A stretch of DNA of 34,209 nt from an uncultured bacterium (GTDB lineage: Bacteria; Cyanobacteriota; Vampirovibrionia; Gastranaerophilales; Gastranaerophilaceae): contig CAMPBE010000016.1 in the NCBI GenBank assembly GCA_946636615.1, positions 1 through 34,209 on the forward strand. The letters run 5' to 3'. How positions within the stretch are numbered: the stretch's first letter is position 1; each line of letters begins with the position of its first letter. Made by a program: the position numbers and the translations under genes. Positions 16,550 to 24,851 of this stretch are shown here, piece after piece. A model generated the notes under the pieces. It was not told the DNA's origin. It saw nothing but the letters and a program-made list of their open reading frames with translations, and did not search any database.

Positions 16550-17617
16550 ATGAAAATATTGGTAGGTTTATCTGGTGGTGTGGATTCATCCGTAGCGGCT
16601 TTGATATTAAAACAACAAGGTTATGATGTTATTGGTGCAACAATGTCAATATGGGGCAAGGACGGTATGGCTGCAAAATCAGGGCATAAGAATGCTTGTT
16701 ACGGTCCTGATGAAGTTGAAGATATTGAATCAGCACGTAAAATAGCTAATCAATTGGATATACCATATTATGTGTTTAATTGTGTTGAGCAGTATGAGCA
16801 AATAGTTTTGGAAAATTTTAAATCAGAATATTTACAAGGCAGAACGCCAAATCCTTGTGTATGGTGTAATGCGCTTGTGAAATTTGGTGTTCTTCCTCAT
16901 ATGGCAAAGGCGAATAATGTAGAATTTGATAAATTTGCAACAGGTCATTATGCAAGAATTGAAAAATTTGGTGATAAATTTGTTTTAAAAAAAGGTATTG
17001 CGCAAAATAAAGATCAATCATATTTTCTGTATAGATTAACACAAGATCAGTTGAAAAATATAATTTTACCATTGGGTGCATACACAAAAGATGAAATACG
17101 AAAAATTGCAAAAGAGAATGGATTGGATGTTGCAGAAAAACCTGACAGTCAGGATTTTTATGATGGTGACTACAATGAATTGTTAGACATTAAAGAAAAA
17201 GACGGAAATATTGTTGATTTGTCAGGAAATATTTTAGGTACACATAAAGGCATATGGAATTATACTATTGGTCAGAGAAAAGGTCTTGGGGTATCTTCAA
17301 GTGAGCCACTTTATGTTTTGCAATTAAAAAAAGATACAAATGAGGTTGTTGTCGGACCTGCTGATAAAACTTTTAAAAAAGCATTAAGTGCTACTAAGCT
17401 AAATTGGGTATCTATAGAAAAGCCAAAAGACGAATTTAGAGCAAAGGCCAAAATCAGATCAACTCAAATACCTGTTGATGTTTTAGTGAAACCGTCTGGG
17501 GATGAAATAGAGGTTATATTTGACGAATTGCAAAAATCTATAGCAATAGGTCAATCAGTTGTCTTGTATGATGAAGATGTTGTTTTAGGCGGTGGAATTA
17601 TTGATAAGGCTTATTAA
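16550..17617 (+). CDS. mnmA: tRNA 2-thiouridine synthase MnmA
   Basis: MnmA thiolates position 2 of the wobble uridine in tRNAs for Lys, Glu and Gln, using ATP to adenylate the base. The 355-residue length is normal. The PP-loop SGGVDSS is at 8-14, and NPCVWCN at 101-107 carries the first catalytic Cys (C103) and C106. ATGHYAR, KDQSYFLYRL and WNYTIGQRKGLG follow in family order. The usual second cysteine, in a context like SQDICF, is absent: here the region reads KPDSQDFYDGDY (197-208). An additional ACYGPDE near residue 50 has C50. I recall a subfamily with this shape, so it is probably not an error. It ends in a strong bidirectional terminator. Confidence 0.92.
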   Translation: MKILVGLSGGVDSSVAALILKQQGYDVIGATMSIWGKDGMAAKSGHKNACYGPDEVEDIESARKIANQLDIPYYVFNCVEQYEQIVLENFKSEYLQGRTPNPCVWCNALVKFGVLPHMAKANNVEFDKFATGHYARIEKFGDKFVLKKGIAQNKDQSYFLYRLTQDQLKNIILPLGAYTKDEIRKIAKENGLDVAEKPDSQDFYDGDYNELLDIKEKDGNIVDLSGNILGTHKGIWNYTIGQRKGLGVSSSEPLYVLQLKKDTNEVVVGPADKTFKKALSATKLNWVSIEKPKDEFRAKAKIRSTQIPVDVLVKPSGDEIEVIFDELQKSIAIGQSVVLYDEDVVLGGGIIDKAY

Positions 17618-17622
17618 CCAAT

Positions 17623-17655
17623 AAAAAAGCACCTTTTAAAAAAGGTGCTTTTTTT
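17623..17655. terminator. Bidirectional terminator between mnmA and the DUF2582 gene
   Basis: A long stem around AAAAGCACCTTT (17623-17637 with 17640-17654) ends in a T run on both strands. It lies between convergent genes. Confidence 0.9.
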
Positions 17656-17669
17656 AATTTAAAAAAAAC

Positions 17670-17876
17670 TTATTTTAGTCTTACGCTTACTGATGTACCT
17701 TTTTTAGAGATTTCAACTTTGTCTTCTCTAGCTAACCAGCCAAGACCCAAATCAGCAAAGTTTCCTTTAAGATCTAATTCTTTTTTCATTTTAGAGAATG
17801 TAGATTCTCCATTGTTATTCAAATAATCATAAATCATGCCTGCTGAAAATCCGATTTGTTCTTGTAATTCTTCCAT
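17670..17876 (-). CDS. DUF2582-type winged helix-turn-helix protein
   Basis: A 68-residue protein matching the small winged-helix DUF2582 family. It reads as an IGFSAGMIYDYLN helix, then GESTFSKMKKELDLKG (the predicted recognition part), LGLGWLAREDKVEI, and a short final strand (VSVRLK). Its role is unknown, though the fold suggests DNA or protein binding. The ATG at 17876 has GGAGG six bases upstream; an ATG 12 bases further out overlaps that site and is less likely. It is divergent from the helicase gene, with about 150 bases of A+T-rich sequence between starts. Confidence 0.85.
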   Translation of the reverse strand: MEELQEQIGFSAGMIYDYLNNNGESTFSKMKKELDLKGNFADLGLGWLAREDKVEISKKGTSVSVRLK

Positions 17877-17994
17877 TTTTACCTCCATGTTTTATTGTAA
17901 ATGAATTTTATATTATAGTTATAATAATAGACTAATGGTTAAAAAAATGCAATAGGTTAACAAGATGAGGACAAAATATTTTTTTTGTTATTTA

Positions 17995-18003
17995 TGCTAA
18001 AAT
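17995..18003 (+). promoter_or_regulatory. Extended -10 promoter candidate for the helicase-nuclease operon
   Basis: TGCTAAAAT (TG 17995-17996, TAAAAT 17998-18003) sits 21 bases before the TTG start. The context TTTATGCTA is shared with two other promoters in the window. No strong -35 box is visible. Confidence 0.5.
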
Positions 18004-18024
18004 ACCTTTAAGGGGGAAGTATTA

Positions 18025-21000
18025 TTGTTAATTTCAGGGGATTTGTCGACAAATAAAACTGATTTGCTAATTGATAAATATGCAGAATTGTTAAATTCCG
18101 GCATTAATGCTTCTGAGATTTTGGTGCTTTTACAAAATTCCAACAGGAAACAATATTTTTTGGATAGAACTTTTGAAAAATTAAGAATTGATTGTATAGA
18201 AAAATTACAAGTTCATTCTTTTTTTTCTCTTGTTTATAACACAATCAATGACAATTGGGCATTTTTAGAAAATCTGAATCCATATAATAACCCCTCAATT
18301 TTGCCAAACCTTGCAGGGCTCGAGGTTTCACAATTTTTATTAAAAGATATATTGAAAGAAGTCCCGTTTAAAGGTTACAATTCTAAAAAATCTTTATTGC
18401 ATCAAATTTTTAGAAGATATTCACTGATAGTTCAAAATAACTTGAATGATGAAGATGTTGAATGGCGAACTCGTGTGTTAGGTGAAAGTTTTGCTGATGA
18501 TGCAAAAAATGTATTAAAAAAATTGCTCTCGAGAACATTGCAATATAGGGATTTTGACTATTTAAGACAAGGTTTGGTTTTTAATTATATTTATAAAAAT
18601 ACAGACTATTTTAAGAATATTAAATATTTAATACTTGATGATGGTGATGAGATTACTCCAATTTGTTTTGATTTTATAAAATTTTTAGCACCTCAATTGA
18701 TTGATGTGTTTGTAGCATTTGATCCATATGGCGCAAGTAGAAGCGGTTATTTGAGTGCCGATAGAACTGCTGTGTGGAAGTTTGAAGATTTATTTAAGCA
18801 AAAATCTGAAATTTTACAATCGGATAACAATTTATCGGAAGATGCAAAAAATATTTATTTTAATATTGTTAATAATGAATCAAATGTTTTAAAAAACTTT
18901 TCTCTAACCTCTGTATCGAAACGTGCATCCATGATTGATGAAGCAATAAAAAGAATAAAAGAGCTGTTAGGGAAGGATGTAAAACCTTTTGAAATATCAA
19001 TTATTACTCCTTTAGTTGATGATATGTTGAAGTTTTCGTTGAAAGAAAATTTACATAATAATATTGTATATTTATCAGGCAGTGAAAAATTGGTTAATAA
19101 CAGAATAGTAAAATCTGTTTTGAATATTCTCAAAATGTCCTTGGGTATAAAAATTTCTCATTTTGAGTTAAGAGTCGTGCTATCTCATTTTTTAGGCATT
19201 CCTATTAGATATTGTAAAAATATTCTTGAAAATTATGAAAAAACATTTCAGTTGATTGATTGGAATTTTCAAAATGATGAATATACAAATAAGTATGTTA
19301 ATTTTAAAAACATATTAGAAAATCTAAAAAACTCTGATATAAAATTATCAGAAAAAGTATATGAAATATTCAATTCTTTTACTGAATTTTATTTAGTTAA
19401 TTCCACAGAAATGGCTAAATTTAACTTTTTCATAAAGCAATTGCAAGATTTTGAAAATATATTTGGAGATGAGTTTAAACTAAGACAAGAAGAAATCATA
19501 AATCAGATAGAAAATTCAATTATATCTGAAAATCCGTATTCTATTTTAGAAATTTCTCAAAACGATTTGATAGTTTCTACCCCACAAAAAATTATTGACA
19601 ATCAGGTTAAAACAAAATATCAGATATGGCTTGATATTTCAAGTGATGAATGGATAAAGAGTGATATAGGTCCTTTGTATAATGCTTGGGTTTTTCAAAG
19701 AGGTTGGGCAAAGGATGAATTTACTGTAGATGATAATATAGAATTATCCAAAGAAAAGACTGCAAGAATTTTGAGAAAGATAATTCTTTGCGCATCTGAG
19801 AATATAAATGTTTATGCTAGCTTATTTGATGGTAATGGCGTTGAAAACTTTGGCGGTATACAAGATTATATTAAAGTTCAAGAAAATGATGATTCAGATT
19901 TGAATGCAGAGAAAAAGTTTAATATAATTCCAAGAGAAGATCAAAAACCTGTACTTGAATATAAAAACGGTAAAATGGCTATTTCAGCAGTTCCCGGTGC
20001 CGGAAAAACAACAATTCTTTTGGCGTTAATTATAAAACTTTTAAACGACGGAATTAATCCTGAGAATATATTTGTTATGACATATATGGAATCGGCTGCA
20101 AGAAATTTTCGTGACAGGATAAAGACTATTCGCTCAAACAGCTCTCAATTACCAAATATCAGTACAATTCATGGTTTGGCGTTAAGAATTCTAAAAGAAA
20201 ACGGAAACCATGAAAGATTAGGACTGCCATCAGATTTTGAAATTTGCGATGATACCCAAAGAACTAATATATTAAGACAAATATCGCAAAATTTAAAATT
20301 AAAAAAAACGGAAACAGATGAATTTGAAAGGGGTATTTCCGTATTAAAGATGGGATGTAAAAAAACTGATGGAAATATAGAAACAAGTGATGCTAAAATA
20401 AAAAGATTTTTGGAATTTTTTAGAGAATATCAGGCTGTTTTGAAAGAAAATAATTTAATTGATTATGATGATATGCTTATATCTTCTGTAAGATTGCTTG
20501 AAGAAAATGATGATATTTTAAAGTATTATCAAAATATTTGTCAATATATAATCGAAGACGAAGCTCAGGATTCTTCTGCAATTCAACAAAGGTTAATTAA
20601 TTTATTAAGTTCAAAATCTAAAAACTTAATAAGGTGCGGTGATATTAATCAGGCAATCACAACAACTTTTTCTAATGCTGATGTTGAAGGATTTAGAAAA
20701 TTTATAGCAGAAAGTGATAATGTAAGCATGGACCATTCTCAACGGTGTTGTGAGGATGTGTGGAAACTTGCAAATAAACTTGTTGATTTCGGAAAAACAA
20801 AGCCTGAATTTAGCGGTGCTTTTTTTGATATATATATGAAACCTGTACAAGGTAAAAATCCGGTTTCGCAAAATGCAATAAATCCTAAAATATTTGAAAA
20901 ACCATTAGAAGAAAGAAATTATATTTTAAGAGAAATTAAATCAATACTGCGAAAAGAACCAAAATGTACTGTTGGTATATTACTCAGAAATAATTATCAA

Positions 21001-21897
21001 GTTGCACAGTGGATAAACTTCTTAAATAATAGCGGTTTGAAAACGATCACCCGAAGCGAATCTCTTGAACAAAAATCTATTTTTAGAACGATTTTTGCAA
21101 TTATGAATATGATATTAAAACCTTTTGATAATAATTTAATTGCAGAAAATTATGAGATTTTGGCAGAAACAGGATTGTATAAACAACGTTTGGGGTATGA
21201 AATAAAAAAATGTGATATTCCTTTTATAGAACAGAATTGTGATGATATTGAAAATATACATCTTGCTCAATTCTATTGGGATTTAACATATTGGCTATAT
21301 TTTAGTTATCTTGCACCTGAAGAATTAGCAATCAAAATCGGTTTGCATTACTTTTCATCAGAAATTGAAAAATCAAATGTTTATTTAATTTCTACATTAA
21401 TAAAACGGTTGAGTATGAATAATCAAGATATGGAATCTTTGTTATTAAGATTGGGAGAACTTGCAAAAAAACCAAGTCTTAGCGGATTTAAATTTTTCTC
21501 GGAAGAAGATGAAAGCTCAAAAGAATTTGTAGCAGGTAAAGTCCAGATAATGACTATGCATAAATCAAAAGGGGATGAATTTGACTATGTATTTATGCCG
21601 GAAATGACTGAGAAAAATTTGACTTTTGATGTAGCGCAGGTAAAATTAAAATCTTCAGAATTTATGGAAAATATAAGACGATTGAATCCTGAATATAAAA
21701 ATAAAACAGAAAACGATATGGTATGTGAGCAAATTGCAGAGAATTTGCGTCTTTTGTATGTTGCAATTACAAGAGCTAAAAAATATTTATGTATTACAAC
21801 CAGCAGAAAAACAACGTCATTTGGAAAAGTTGTTGAACAAGAACCCAATCTGATATTTAATGATTTATTAGAGTGTCGTGAGGTGTACAGTGACTAG
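18025..21897 (+). CDS. Two-module SF1 helicase, AddA/UvrD-like with an inactive AddB-like N-terminal half
   Basis: A 1290-residue protein made of two SF1-like modules. The C-terminal half is an intact UvrD/AddA-type 3'-5' helicase: Walker A AVPGAGKTT (K661), STIHGLALRIL, Walker B IIEDEAQDSS (E844-D849), MTMHKSKGDEFD (from 1176), and the arginine motif LLYVAITRAKKYL near 1245. The N-terminal 620 residues repeat the plan in degenerate form. GDLSTNKT (5-12) has Asn in place of the Walker Gly, LQVHSFFSLVY resembles the second motif, and YLILDDGDEITP resembles Walker B. That recalls AddB fused ahead of AddA. No nuclease domain is present; a separate RecB-like nuclease follows and overlaps by 8 bases. 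It starts with TTG behind a strong AAGGGGG. The likely role is double-strand-break end processing. Confidence 0.87.
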   Translation: MLISGDLSTNKTDLLIDKYAELLNSGINASEILVLLQNSNRKQYFLDRTFEKLRIDCIEKLQVHSFFSLVYNTINDNWAFLENLNPYNNPSILPNLAGLEVSQFLLKDILKEVPFKGYNSKKSLLHQIFRRYSLIVQNNLNDEDVEWRTRVLGESFADDAKNVLKKLLSRTLQYRDFDYLRQGLVFNYIYKNTDYFKNIKYLILDDGDEITPICFDFIKFLAPQLIDVFVAFDPYGASRSGYLSADRTAVWKFEDLFKQKSEILQSDNNLSEDAKNIYFNIVNNESNVLKNFSLTSVSKRASMIDEAIKRIKELLGKDVKPFEISIITPLVDDMLKFSLKENLHNNIVYLSGSEKLVNNRIVKSVLNILKMSLGIKISHFELRVVLSHFLGIPIRYCKNILENYEKTFQLIDWNFQNDEYTNKYVNFKNILENLKNSDIKLSEKVYEIFNSFTEFYLVNSTEMAKFNFFIKQLQDFENIFGDEFKLRQEEIINQIENSIISENPYSILEISQNDLIVSTPQKIIDNQVKTKYQIWLDISSDEWIKSDIGPLYNAWVFQRGWAKDEFTVDDNIELSKEKTARILRKIILCASENINVYASLFDGNGVENFGGIQDYIKVQENDDSDLNAEKKFNIIPREDQKPVLEYKNGKMAISAVPGAGKTTILLALIIKLLNDGINPENIFVMTYMESAARNFRDRIKTIRSNSSQLPNISTIHGLALRILKENGNHERLGLPSDFEICDDTQRTNILRQISQNLKLKKTETDEFERGISVLKMGCKKTDGNIETSDAKIKRFLEFFREYQAVLKENNLIDYDDMLISSVRLLEENDDILKYYQNICQYIIEDEAQDSSAIQQRLINLLSSKSKNLIRCGDINQAITTTFSNADVEGFRKFIAESDNVSMDHSQRCCEDVWKLANKLVDFGKTKPEFSGAFFDIYMKPVQGKNPVSQNAINPKIFEKPLEERNYILREIKSILRKEPKCTVGILLRNNYQVAQWINFLNNSGLKTITRSESLEQKSIFRTIFAIMNMILKPFDNNLIAENYEILAETGLYKQRLGYEIKKCDIPFIEQNCDDIENIHLAQFYWDLTYWLYFSYLAPEELAIKIGLHYFSSEIEKSNVYLISTLIKRLSMNNQDMESLLLRLGELAKKPSLSGFKFFSEEDESSKEFVAGKVQIMTMHKSKGDEFDYVFMPEMTEKNLTFDVAQVKLKSSEFMENIRRLNPEYKNKTENDMVCEQIAENLRLLYVAITRAKKYLCITTSRKTTSFGKVVEQEPNLIFNDLLECREVYSD

Positions 21898-22525
21898 TTA
21901 TTCTCCTAACATGTTAAAAACTTATCAAAATTGCCCTCAGAAATATTGCTTAAAATACGAGCAAAAACTTATTATGCCTCAAAAAGCTTCTTTGTTTGAA
22001 AAAGGTAAGAATATTCATGCGTTAGCAAATTATTATCTAAAAGGTGATAATATTGACAAATTTTTAACTGTTTTAAACCAAGAAGAAGTCCTGTTATGGG
22101 AAACTTTGAAAAATAATATATATTTTCAGAAACAATATGTGGAATCTGAATATAATTTATCTTGTAAAATTGGAGATTTTTGGATTGGCGGTAGAATCGA
22201 CGCAATTGTGAAAGATGAAGAAAAATATTATATTCTTGATTATAAAACAGGTGCTATCCCAAAAGAACCTGAAAATGATTATCAAACAATGATTTATATG
22301 CTTTGTTTAAGTAAAAAATTAAATCGCATTGATGGAATTAATTTTGTTTATATTGATTTAAAAAATAATCAAAATCATTTGATTGAATTGTCAGATGAAA
22401 AGTTACGTGAATATGAAAAAAGCATTATCAAAATTTGTAATTCTATAAAAAACGTTCAAATACAAGAGGATTTAAAATTTTCAAAAAAATGTGATTTTTG
22501 TGAGTATAAAAGAGTTTGTTTTTAA
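21890..22525 (+). CDS. RecB-like PD-(D/E)XK nuclease with Fe-S cysteines (Cas4/AddB-type)
   Basis: A 211-residue nuclease of the RecB/Cas4 clan. The catalytic core is GGRID (D104), then LDYKTG (D117, K119) and QTMIYML, the usual order of motifs II, III and QxxxY-like. Four cysteines frame it: C15 in QNCPQKY, and C201, C204, C210 in CDFCEYKRVC. These can hold a 4Fe-4S cluster, as in AddB and Cas4. I chose the GTG at 21890, six bases after TGAGG; a GTG at 21878 is alternative. It overlaps the helicase stop by 8 bases, so the two are translationally coupled and probably form one machine, with this protein cutting the strands opened by the helicase. No cas genes or CRISPR array lie nearby, which argues against a Cas4 role. 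Confidence 0.9.
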   Translation: MTSYSPNMLKTYQNCPQKYCLKYEQKLIMPQKASLFEKGKNIHALANYYLKGDNIDKFLTVLNQEEVLLWETLKNNIYFQKQYVESEYNLSCKIGDFWIGGRIDAIVKDEEKYYILDYKTGAIPKEPENDYQTMIYMLCLSKKLNRIDGINFVYIDLKNNQNHLIELSDEKLREYEKSIIKICNSIKNVQIQEDLKFSKKCDFCEYKRVCF

Positions 22526-22540
22526 CCCTTTTTAAAAATA

Positions 22541-22572
22541 CAAAACCCTCTGTATAATTACAGAGGGTTTTG
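22541..22572. terminator. Bidirectional terminator between the nuclease gene and rplL
   Basis: A 14-bp stem (arm CAAAACCCTCTGTA, 22541-22554 with 22559-22572) has a 4-base loop. Both strands carry a T-rich run. It closes the helicase-nuclease operon and the rplJL operon. Confidence 0.92.
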
Positions 22573-22590
22573 TAAAAATAGTGTTAAAAA

Positions 22591-22971
22591 CTATTTGATT
22601 TCTACAGTTGCGCCAGCTGCTTCTAATTTAGCTTTAATGTCTTTAGCTTCTTCAGGTTTAATACCTTCTTTAATAGCTTTAGGAGCACCATCAACTAAAT
22701 CTTTAGCTTCTTTCAAACCTAAACCTGTAATTTCACGAACGATTTTCAATACAGGGATTTTTTGGTCGCCAGCGCTAGCCAAAATTACAGATACTTCAGA
22801 AGGAGCTTCACCTGCATCTGCTGCACCTGCTGCTGCTGGAGCTGCTGCTGCAACTGCAACCGGAGCTGCTGCTGATACGCCGAATTTTTCTTCCATAGCT
22901 TTTACTAATTCAGCTGCTTCTAACAAAGTTAATTTTTCAATTGATTCTAAAATAGTTTCTACGTTACTCAT
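22591..22971 (-). CDS. rplL: 50S ribosomal protein L7/L12
   Basis: The 126-residue stalk protein of the large subunit, which recruits translation factors. The N-terminal dimerisation helix ([19 protein letters not shown]) is followed by an Ala/Pro/Gly-rich hinge and the conserved C-terminal domain ([20 protein letters not shown], with VDGAPK). The ATG at 22971 follows AAGGAG. It lies 189 bases after the end of rplJ, longer than usual. That gap contains a small hairpin (arms GTCAGA/TCTGAC, 23003-23019) with no T run, so it is not a terminator. The two genes are probably cotranscribed, which fits control by the L10 leader. Confidence 0.97.
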
Positions 22972-23160
22972 TATTCTTCTCCTTTTTTGTTTTTCGTTTG
23001 ATGTCAGATTTTGTCTGACCTACTTTTAATTGTCATCTGTGTTTAATTATTGCTTTACACTCCGCTGTCATTCACTACATTTTAATTCGTAAAGTTTTTG
23101 TTCATTAGCTTCGTGATACTTCGAGTTTGTTCGCTATTGCTCACTCCACTCTACGCAAAA

Positions 23161-23679
23161 TTAAGCTTTTTGATCTCTAACAGCTGCCATAGCACGTGTA
23201 AGTTGTGCCATAACTGCGTTGATAGATCCAACGATACCTGATGCCGGTGAATTGATTGAACCAAGAATTTTTGCAATAAGTTCTTCTTTTGATGGAAGTT
23301 TTGCAAGAGCTTCAACTTCTTTTGCATCAAGAAGTTTGCCATCCAATGCACCACCTAAAATAGCACCCTTTTTAGTATCTTTGATAAATTTAGAAACTGC
23401 TTTTGCAGGGCTAACTTGATCTTCATAACCAAAAGCAATAGCTATAGGTCCTGTTAAAGACTCAGCAAGCACTTCAAATTCAGTACCCTTTAGAGCAATT
23501 TTAGCTAAAGTGTTTTTAGTTACCATGTAGTCGCCGCCGTCTTTTTGAAGCGCACGTCTAAGATTTGTGATTTCTTCTACACTGTAACCTTTATACTCAG
23601 TTAAAACAGCTACTTGGGCTTTTTCTGCTTTTGCTTTAATTTCATTGATTTTTTCTGATTTAAAAGCTTTTGTTGCCAT
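23161..23679 (-). CDS. rplJ: 50S ribosomal protein L10
   Basis: The 172-residue stalk base protein that binds 23S rRNA and carries L7/L12 dimers through its C-terminal helix. Family landmarks include VLTEYKGYSVEEITNLRRAL near the N-terminus, YMVTKNTLAKIAL, the GPIAIAFGYED stretch, and the AKILGSINSPASGIVGSIN and Ala-rich C-terminal helix region. The ATG at 23679 has AAGGAG five bases upstream. It is preceded by an L10 leader and an attenuator, so L10-L12 complexes are expected to repress it. The canonical neighbours rplK, rplA and rpoB are not here; a membrane protein and panC precede it instead. Confidence 0.97.
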   Translation of the reverse strand: MATKAFKSEKINEIKAKAEKAQVAVLTEYKGYSVEEITNLRRALQKDGGDYMVTKNTLAKIALKGTEFEVLAESLTGPIAIAFGYEDQVSPAKAVSKFIKDTKKGAILGGALDGKLLDAKEVEALAKLPSKEELIAKILGSINSPASGIVGSINAVMAQLTRAMAAVRDQKA

Positions 23680-23726
23680 TTTTGCTCCTTTTTTGTGTAC
23701 TACATATTTTACCGACCACGAACATT

Positions 23727-23769
23727 AAAAAAGACTTTGCGTCATTCTCAATATTCAGACCGCAAAATC
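23727..23769 (-). terminator. Transcription attenuator between the L10 leader and rplJ
   Basis: On the minus strand GATTTTGCGGTC (23769-23758) pairs with GACGCAAAGTC (23743-23733), with one bulged G and one wobble. Six T follow (23732-23727). It lies after the leader and 48 bases before rplJ, so it must be read through to express rplJL. TGCGGT in its first arm (23764-23759) is exactly complementary to ACCGCA of the leader (23876-23871), giving an obvious antiterminator. Confidence 0.75.
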
Positions 23770-23799
23770 TTACAAGTTAAAACATCTATTTATATTTTC

Positions 23800-23880
23800 G
23801 ACTGTTTCACCTCGGCTAGATATTAAGGTAGTTATTATAAGGATTTTACCCCCAACCACCACTAGCTGTCTGCGGTTATA
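23800..23880 (-). ncRNA. Ribosomal protein L10 leader RNA
   Basis: The minus strand has the conserved leader elements: ACCGCAGACAGCTAGTGG (beginning at 23876), a variable segment, then TATCTAGCCGAGGTGAAACAG ending near 23802 (the run is split by the kink). In known L10 leaders this structure binds the L10-L12 complex and controls rplJL. CTAG in the first arm and CTAG in the second allow the expected helix. The RNA would start near 23880 from a TTGATT/TAGTAT promoter. Confidence 0.85.
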
Positions 23881-23885
23881 TGTTC

Positions 23886-23914
23886 ATACTATTATAAAAA
23901 TTTTTAGAAATCAA
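23886..23914 (-). promoter_or_regulatory. Promoter of rplJL
   Basis: On the minus strand TTGATT (23914-23909) and TAGTAT (23891-23886) are 17 bases apart, ending just before the L10 leader. It lies partly against the 3' end of the upstream membrane-protein gene (stop at 23922). Confidence 0.6.
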
Positions 23915-23921
23915 GTATAAG

Positions 23922-24851
23922 TTAAACTTTCTTAACCAATACGTATATATCAGAACCTCCATCGATTGCGTAATCGCTATTGAAAAGTTCAATATTGTAT
24001 TTTTGATCCTGTTTATATTGATATCTTAATTTAAAGTTACCAAAGCAAGTAATTCCTCTTGAATGTCTGATTTTAATTAAATTTTCCAATGCAGGATATA
24101 CAGTGTTTCTGAAATCTGTATTGTTATCATATACCTCTACTCCAATATAGCTGTATATTTCCCAATTGTCTTCTTTGAGCTCTGATTTTATTTTGTCGAT
24201 AATTTTGCTGATTTTGGGTAAAATAGTGTCAATCATAATAAATTCATTTAACATTACAACAAGTTTTGTGCCATTTTTGGCGAATTTACATCCTTTTAAT
24301 TCTTTCAATTCTGTATATAGCATTTTGAACGTAATTTCTTCTTTTTCATCTTTATTTCTTATTGGCTGGTCAGCTTTTCTATATTTTTTGATTGTTAAAT
24401 CTTTTAACTCTATTTTTATGATGATTGCAACATTGTTAGAATTTAAAATTCTTTTTTCTGTTTCTATTCTTAGAGCTTCATTAAATTTATTTTCCTCTTG
24501 TTGTATTAGTCCATCAACAATTTTATCAATGAATTCTGCAGATCTATAAATATAATATTTGCTTTTTGATATAATAAACACAATTAAAATTGATACTATA
24601 TCAAATACAAGGATGGAAGCATCAATGGTATTGCCTGCAATATCAATGCTTGAGTTATAATAAATTTTTACAAAATCTGATATTGCTTCAGCTATTGGCT
24701 CTGCAAACATGAAGAAATCGAAGCCTGCTACTCCAAAAAACCAATATGCTGCGGAAAAAAATACAAGTATCATCAAAACAATTTGTATTGCAAATAGTAA
24801 GTTTATAAATAATCTAATTAATTTTTGAAGTATTTTAAAAAGTAATATCAT
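23922..24851 (-). CDS. Membrane-anchored protein of unknown function, coupled to panC
   Basis: A 309-residue protein I do not recognise. Two hydrophobic stretches near the N-terminus (about 10-50, with a Phe/Ala/Gly-rich centre, and about 80-96, ILVFDIVSILIVFIIS) are probably membrane segments, and a third weaker one may lie between them. The rest (about 105-309) is hydrophilic and mixed alpha/beta. It includes a charged segment (RKADQPIRNKDEKEE) and repeated Ile/Lys helices (PKISKIIDKIKSELKEDN), and probably lies in the cytoplasm. It ends in a hydrophobic strand (SDIYVLVKKV). Its ATG overlaps the panC stop by 4 bases (ATGA), so the pair is coupled, but nothing in the sequence ties it to pantothenate synthesis. 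Confidence 0.7.
   Translation of the reverse strand: MILLFKILQKLIRLFINLLFAIQIVLMILVFFSAAYWFFGVAGFDFFMFAEPIAEAISDFVKIYYNSSIDIAGNTIDASILVFDIVSILIVFIISKSKYYIYRSAEFIDKIVDGLIQQEENKFNEALRIETEKRILNSNNVAIIIKIELKDLTIKKYRKADQPIRNKDEKEEITFKMLYTELKELKGCKFAKNGTKLVVMLNEFIMIDTILPKISKIIDKIKSELKEDNWEIYSYIGVEVYDNNTDFRNTVYPALENLIKIRHSRGITCFGNFKLRYQYKQDQKYNIELFNSDYAIDGGSDIYVLVKKV

Follow-up and report, generated by a model that had tools for sequence, protein, structure and literature searches.

An inactive and an active SF1A helicase module in one protein, encoded with an overlapping Fe–S nuclease gene in Gastranaerophilaceae: a candidate DNA-end-processing helicase–nuclease

The window, that is, the whole stretch of DNA analysed (34,209 nucleotides), represents contig C16 of a 1.66-Mb genome that is 98% complete, and the named close relatives of this genome are mostly gut Gastranaerophilales of the class Vampirovibrionia/Melainabacteria. 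The locus of interest is a two-gene unit on the forward strand, flanked by mnmA and the ribosomal genes rplL/rplJ, all of which were assigned from their own sequences (Table 1). The first gene begins with a TTG codon, while the GTG start of the second at 21890 creates an 8-base overlap with the 3′ end of the helicase gene; the same start position was found in homologues. The open reading frame at 18025–21897, the motifs GDLSTNKT and LDDGDE within it and the length of the overlap, all described in the initial annotation, were borne out by direct reading. Among the neighbouring ORFs (17000–24000), we detected no further helicase gene, and thus no SF1B motor RecD, and no cas genes.

Table 1. Features of the fused helicase–nuclease locus, numbered from the first letter of the window
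Feature	Position	Strand	Basis or remark
Shine-Dalgarno-like AAGGGGGAAG, 5′ of the TTG start	18010..18019	+	read directly
1290-aa protein, inactive SF1A module and active UvrD-type SF1A helicase in one chain	18025..21897	+	
N module, residues 1–628, complete SF1A fold lacking a functional ATPase site	18025..19908	+	AlphaFold model, structure alignment
Degenerate Walker A, GDLSTNKT, residues 5–12	18037..18060	+	
LDDGDE at the Walker B position, residues 204–209	18634..18651	+	aligned relatives
QIWLDISSDEW, N-module signature common to fused and stand-alone forms	19621..19653	+	
C module, residues 629–1290, UvrD/PcrA-type 3′–5′ SF1A helicase, motifs intact	19909..21894	+	
Intact Walker A, AVPGAGKTT, residues 655–663	19987..20013	+	
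Intact Walker B, EDEAQD, residues 844–849	20554..20571	+	
Fe–S PD-(D/E)XK nuclease, 211 aa	21890..22525	+	GTG start
First cluster cysteine, Cys15	21932..21934	+	
CX2CX5C, remaining cluster cysteines Cys201, 204 and 210	22490..22519	+	
Terminator-like stem in the gap that separates the nuclease gene from the convergent ribosomal-protein gene	22539..22574	-	consensus match alone

Residues 1–625 of the long protein gave no significant match in Pfam or NCBIfam. An AlphaFold model of the N module, for which an alignment with 21 relatives was used as input, showed a mean pLDDT of 88. This model aligned end to end with the structure of UvrD (Z 30), over 578 residues with that of AdnB (Z 25) and, through its residues 1–621, with residues 4–696 of AddB (Z about 23, 575–581 residues aligned), the last alignment stopping where the AddB nuclease begins. 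Together, the three structures cover residues 1–622. These full-length alignments with UvrD, AdnB and AddB identify the N half as an SF1A helicase by fold, in agreement with the helicase-like part initially proposed, and the SF1A fold extends over the whole length of the model. Since UvrD and AdnB match the model as well as AddB does, or better, this is a match of fold and not proof of family.

In the alignment of N modules, motifs III and VI, including the arginine finger, were replaced throughout. In the box at the Walker B position, D208 and E209 were invariant and D206 nearly so; the DDxDE box, the WLDxSSxxW sequence and an Asp-x-x-Gly-x-x-Arg-x-Gly pattern at the position of motif III were largely retained. 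The Walker A motif was intact in deeper relatives (GPxxSGKT, or more narrowly GPxGSGKT), and was missing or unrecognizable in family f2, a single f11 genome and a sub-clade of Gastranaerophilaceae itself. The substitution of Asn for Gly, previously pointed out, is indeed present here, but it is a late state and does not define the module. The ATP site was thus lost on several independent occasions. The N module is under selection for a role that is not ATP hydrolysis.

Three loci (L060, L061 and L062, in genomes G074, G086 and G011) carried in-frame inserts of 190–280 aa at approximately residue 260 of the N module, flanked by repeats of the forms PPxxGG, SPSPLEGE and NPLPQGxGG. These inserts encode a DUF559 (Vsr-like) endonuclease, as judged by Pfam match for L060 and L061 and by likeness for L062, and shorter inserts of similar kind were observed in the nuclease gene. 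The N-module inserts look like mobile palindromic elements that carry a nuclease and insert in frame.

All the SF1A motifs were found in the C half, and their key residues were retained across 34 aligned fusions. The UvrD-helicase match in Pfam (1.7e-52) covered the chain from residue 639 onward only. When the two halves were searched separately, the N half gave no significant match, while the C half scored best with the NCBIfam model for PcrA (188 bits), followed by Rep (175 bits), UvrD (140 bits) and AddA (98 bits with addA_Gpos, against a cut-off of 708); the RecB equivalog model remained far under its cut-off. The C half had been described as an intact UvrD/AddA helicase. It is intact, but both these scores (188 versus 98 bits) and the helicase tree place it nearer PcrA, Rep and UvrD than AddA. 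As initially stated, neither half carries a nuclease, with no nuclease match in Pfam or NCBIfam in either half of the 1290-aa chain. We considered Gabija and rejected it, as the GajB matches of the C module are generic to UvrD-type helicases and the adjoining nuclease is of the Cas4/AddB type, not GajA.

The product of the second gene matched PDDEXK_1 (1.2e-22) and Cas4 (6e-18). Its score with the Cas4 equivalog model TIGR00372 was 65.3 bits, where the cut-off is 65, and a deeper relative scored 22 bits. Its frame of Cys15…Cys201-X2-Cys204-X5-Cys210, together with conserved E, D and D-x-K residues, corresponds to the separate four-cysteine nuclease of AddB/Cas4 type expected from the initial annotation, and the AddB nuclease domain aligned with its model (pLDDT 92) at Z 12.5. 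The best structural match was the AdnA nuclease domain (Z 16.6), and the ACE1 Cas4-family nucleases of cyanobacteria followed at Z 15.8. ACE1 (PDB 9iab and 9iac) was also the top PDB match by sequence (E 5.6e-7, 16% identity). The locus has no second nuclease gene, and elsewhere in the genome PF12705 matched only the UvrD-Cas4 protein on contig C22. In the nucleases of one sub-clade (L055–L059), all four Fe–S cysteines were lost and the catalytic residues kept.

The long protein was detected in nearly all of 146 Gastranaerophilaceae genomes, at 40–75% identity and mostly at full length. The nuclease gene lies immediately 3′ of the fusion in 60 of 80 named loci, usually with an overlap of 4–11 bases. 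This conservation across the family, together with the nuclease directly downstream in those loci, indicates that the fusion is not a chance ORF. No adjoining nuclease gene was present in the other 20 loci; in families f2, f4 and f11 the nuclease was present but unlinked, and in genera g12, g16 and g41 of Gastranaerophilaceae no separate nuclease was found. The helicase chain can therefore exist without the nuclease. Two near-complete Gastranaerophilaceae genomes of genus g8 (G008 and G046) were without the fusion.

Outside Gastranaerophilaceae, the fusion was found in the other families of the order Gastranaerophilales, as well as in three further families of the class (f6, f11 and f12). The sister families f5 and f10 had no fusion; there, AddB was detected above cut-off with AddA adjoining, and one AddB and AddA pair from these lineages matched TIGR02773 at 1.8e-46 and TIGR02785 at 8.9e-102. 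In the fusion-bearing families, AddB_N matches above cut-off were limited to a few genomes of family f1, and those that were read were UvrD-type proteins carrying a nuclease. The fusion and canonical AddB are thus nearly exclusive across families, which is the pattern expected of functional replacement. In our own genome, addA and addB were not found elsewhere: the complete list of UvrD-type proteins consists of PcrA, an accessory UvrD-Cas4 fusion and the 1290-aa fusion, and PF21445 matched PcrA alone, and weakly.

Several other proteins were examined as possible AddA, AddB or RecB. A conserved protein of 1038 aa with a weak UvrD match, a candidate for AddB or RecB, proved to be a UPF1/DNA2-like SF1B helicase; it has a C-terminal restriction-endonuclease-like domain and is conserved in genomes of the genus (L252:1295-4411 and equivalents; contig C27 in our own genome). 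The UvrD and nuclease protein on C22 (L006:3126-10359, with its neighbour), a candidate for AddA, corresponds to the accessory UvrD-Cas4 fusion known from the literature, and several near-complete genomes of the genus were found not to have it. It adjoins a large helicase-methylase restriction-like protein, an arrangement also seen in published defence loci. Two loci (L209 in G032 and L211 in G092) carried, besides the fusion, an extra overlapping pair of helicase genes that is AdnAB- or AddAB-like, the first gene of which has a C-terminal nuclease.

The PcrA score of the C module, and the lineages in which the nuclease is not adjacent or was not found, could be accounted for if the long chain were a lone accessory helicase of PcrA/UvrD type, acting in fork or transcription conflicts, with the nuclease as an independent neighbour. 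Our own genome, like most others of the genus, nevertheless has a separate PcrA, retention of the dead SF1A module extends across the class, and the nuclease gene overlaps in most loci and also in an unfused relative. We consider an accessory helicase of this kind distinctly improbable.

A profile search with the N half in photosynthetic cyanobacteria identified a stand-alone protein of about 640–745 aa. Four of these proteins were scanned; none gave a significant NCBIfam match, and two gave a weak UvrD match in Pfam. In genome G345 (locus L319), a deeper relative, an N protein of 673 aa, a C-type helicase of 712 aa and an Fe–S nuclease of 280 aa have a gene each; the three genes overlap and follow the order of the fusion locus. 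Most photosynthetic cyanobacteria tested had the stand-alone N protein and an orthologous non-PcrA UvrD at unlinked positions. This helicase was present in 17 of 18 cyanobacterial genomes with the N protein and in none of four without it (Fisher p 0.0007, uncorrected for kinship). In the helicase tree, the fused C halves (support 0.999) were sister to the cyanobacterial copies (joint clade 0.944), and the fused and cyanobacterial motors together fell apart from PcrA, AddA and UvrD-Cas4. Family f38, in which neither the N nor the C module occurs, has small genomes and, in one sampled stretch, 31% G+C, as would be expected if it were Prochlorococcus. For one cyanobacterial genome that lacks the N module, neither RecB nor RecC was found in the half that was sampled.

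The existence of both the unfused trio and the dispersed cyanobacterial versions suggests that the parts began as separate genes, two of which later fused. As read from these sequences, the simplest history would start from an ancestor of the phylum in which all three genes were separate, the first two having fused in Vampirovibrionia. The locus had at first been taken for a rearranged AddAB; the fused dead and live helicases and the one nuclease hold, but the unfused three-gene and dispersed forms suggest later fusion instead.

We compared possible ancestors of the N module. FastTree grouped it with AddB (support 1.0), both being long branches. In an AU test with 5000 replicates, fewer than advised, none of AddB (p 0.70), the C modules (p 0.38) and PcrA (p 0.30) was rejected as its sister. 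Profile–profile comparison of the N half scored 140 with its own C half, 119 with AddB and 116 with PcrA, and such scores for AddB, PcrA, UvrD-Cas4 and the own C half are too similar to name an ancestor. Against solved structures by sequence, the family profile gave a marginal PcrA match alone and a broader profile gave PcrA/UvrD at 1e-6; AddB was missing from both match lists. A canonical AddB was rejected by profile, with no match to PF21445 or TIGR02773. The N half had initially been said to look like the inactive helicase of AddB: the fold does resemble AddB, but the profile searches and the AU test do not establish descent from it. AddB is the preferred ancestor, though an unproven one, and the N module working like AddB is better supported than its being AddB. 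The higher score with the own C half and the p values beside the C modules and PcrA would also suit a duplicated copy of UvrD that serves as a regulatory or autoinhibitory domain, not as an AddB-like partner. The FastTree grouping with AddB, long branches included, argues against such a copy, as does the stand-alone N protein of cyanobacteria, which is not merely an intramolecular regulator, and we judge this origin very improbable indeed.

Like AddAB, the locus combines a single SF1A motor with an inactive SF1A-like module and an Fe–S PD-(D/E)XK nuclease. Compared with AddAB, the dead and live modules are in one chain that begins with the dead module, the sole nuclease comes as a protein of its own, so that there is one nuclease and not two, the motor is UvrD/PcrA-like and without the C-terminal nuclease of AddA, and the AddA and AddB profiles gave no match above cut-off. 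RecBCD pairs the dead helicase-like RecC with an SF1A motor and one nuclease, and in this it resembles the locus; here, however, there is no RecD motor and the nuclease is off the motor chain. In AdnAB, both chains each carry helicase and nuclease parts, an arrangement not shared by the locus, although the structural matches of AdnA to the nuclease model and of AdnB to the N module link the two. The nuclease fold is also common to ACE1, an Argonaute-associated Cas4-family protein of cyanobacteria. UvrD-type helicases linked to Cas4-like Pfam12705 nucleases have been reported, with a suggested role in repair, and unfused UvrD/Cas4-like operons were found mostly in Clostridiales (Hudaiberdiev 2017, PMC5704561). 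The dead N module was not described in those systems (PMC5704561). The UvrD-Cas4 fusion is a different gene (on C22 in our own genome, beside the restriction-like gene), lies on a different branch of the helicase tree and unites in one chain the helicase and nuclease that are on separate chains here. The locus thus has the same parts list as the helicase–nucleases, in a different chain order and with a phylum-wide history.

From what the sequences show of domains and motifs, fold, synteny, the phyletic distribution of the parts and their orthology, we consider it likely that the locus encodes a DNA-end-processing helicase–nuclease that works like AddAB/RecBCD and is built differently. What follows is inference and covers the formation of a complex, its polarity and strand choice, RecA loading and a role in repair. 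The C module would be the sole motor, translocating 3′–5′, and the N module, with no motor activity, would part the duplex and steer one of its strands, like AddB or RecC. The separate Fe–S nuclease would dock onto the complex and cut one of the two unwound strands. The simplest choice would be the 5′ strand, which the nuclease of AddB trims (PMC4824097), and a 3′ tail would be left for RecA. With an AddB-type nuclease alone, no nuclease acting on the 3′ strand would have to be switched off, and Chi-like control may thus be weaker or lacking altogether.

In a transposon screen of Synechococcus elongatus, loss of ago, cas4-like, uvrD (a PcrA paralogue), recJcy, rpoD2 or Synpcc7942_0992 favoured RSF1010 and natural transformation; for cas4-like, uvrD and ago, the transfer or maintenance of RSF1010 was raised (PMC10653904). 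These phenotypes, the presence of ACE1, named as Argonaute-associated, among the closest nuclease structures and the known defence loci with UvrD-type helicases and Cas4-like nucleases (PMC5704561) could mean that the locus is chiefly a defence or DNA-exclusion device, which destroys incoming plasmid or transforming DNA or makes Argonaute guides, with repair secondary. The uvrD and cas4-like genes of S. elongatus are, however, only candidate orthologues of the locus parts, and destruction of foreign DNA is also a property of RecBCD and AddAB, which makes the phenotypes compatible with repair. The locus lies amid core genes (mnmA and ribosomal proteins); unlike patchy defence genes, it is inherited vertically in the family and present in nearly all of its genomes. 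A primarily defensive function is therefore unlikely in our judgement, and we retain the end-processing helicase–nuclease.

Together, recBCD genes have been found mainly in marine Prochlorococcus and Synechococcus and are incomplete in common model strains, according to a survey (PMC5101192), while S. elongatus is reported to encode AddAB (PMC10269773). In the open-access literature searched, the present machine is not described. Relatives show the fusion and its nuclease to be old and inherited within the phylum, and this machine probably does the broken-end job of AddAB/RecBCD. It is conceivable, though we put it at slightly less than an even chance, that the three-part machine is the missing RecBCD/AddAB counterpart of Cyanobacteriota, dispersed in the photosynthetic members and fused and gathered into an operon in Vampirovibrionia. 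If so, it would account for the mutant phenotype common to uvrD, cas4-like and argonaute in S. elongatus. The dead module has evaded Pfam and NCBIfam. The parts that AddAB keeps together are here separate in nature, and this would show what a dead helicase contributes and what the nuclease contributes. As double-strand-break resection in many cyanobacteria is poorly understood, the three-part helicase–nuclease offers a concrete, testable candidate.
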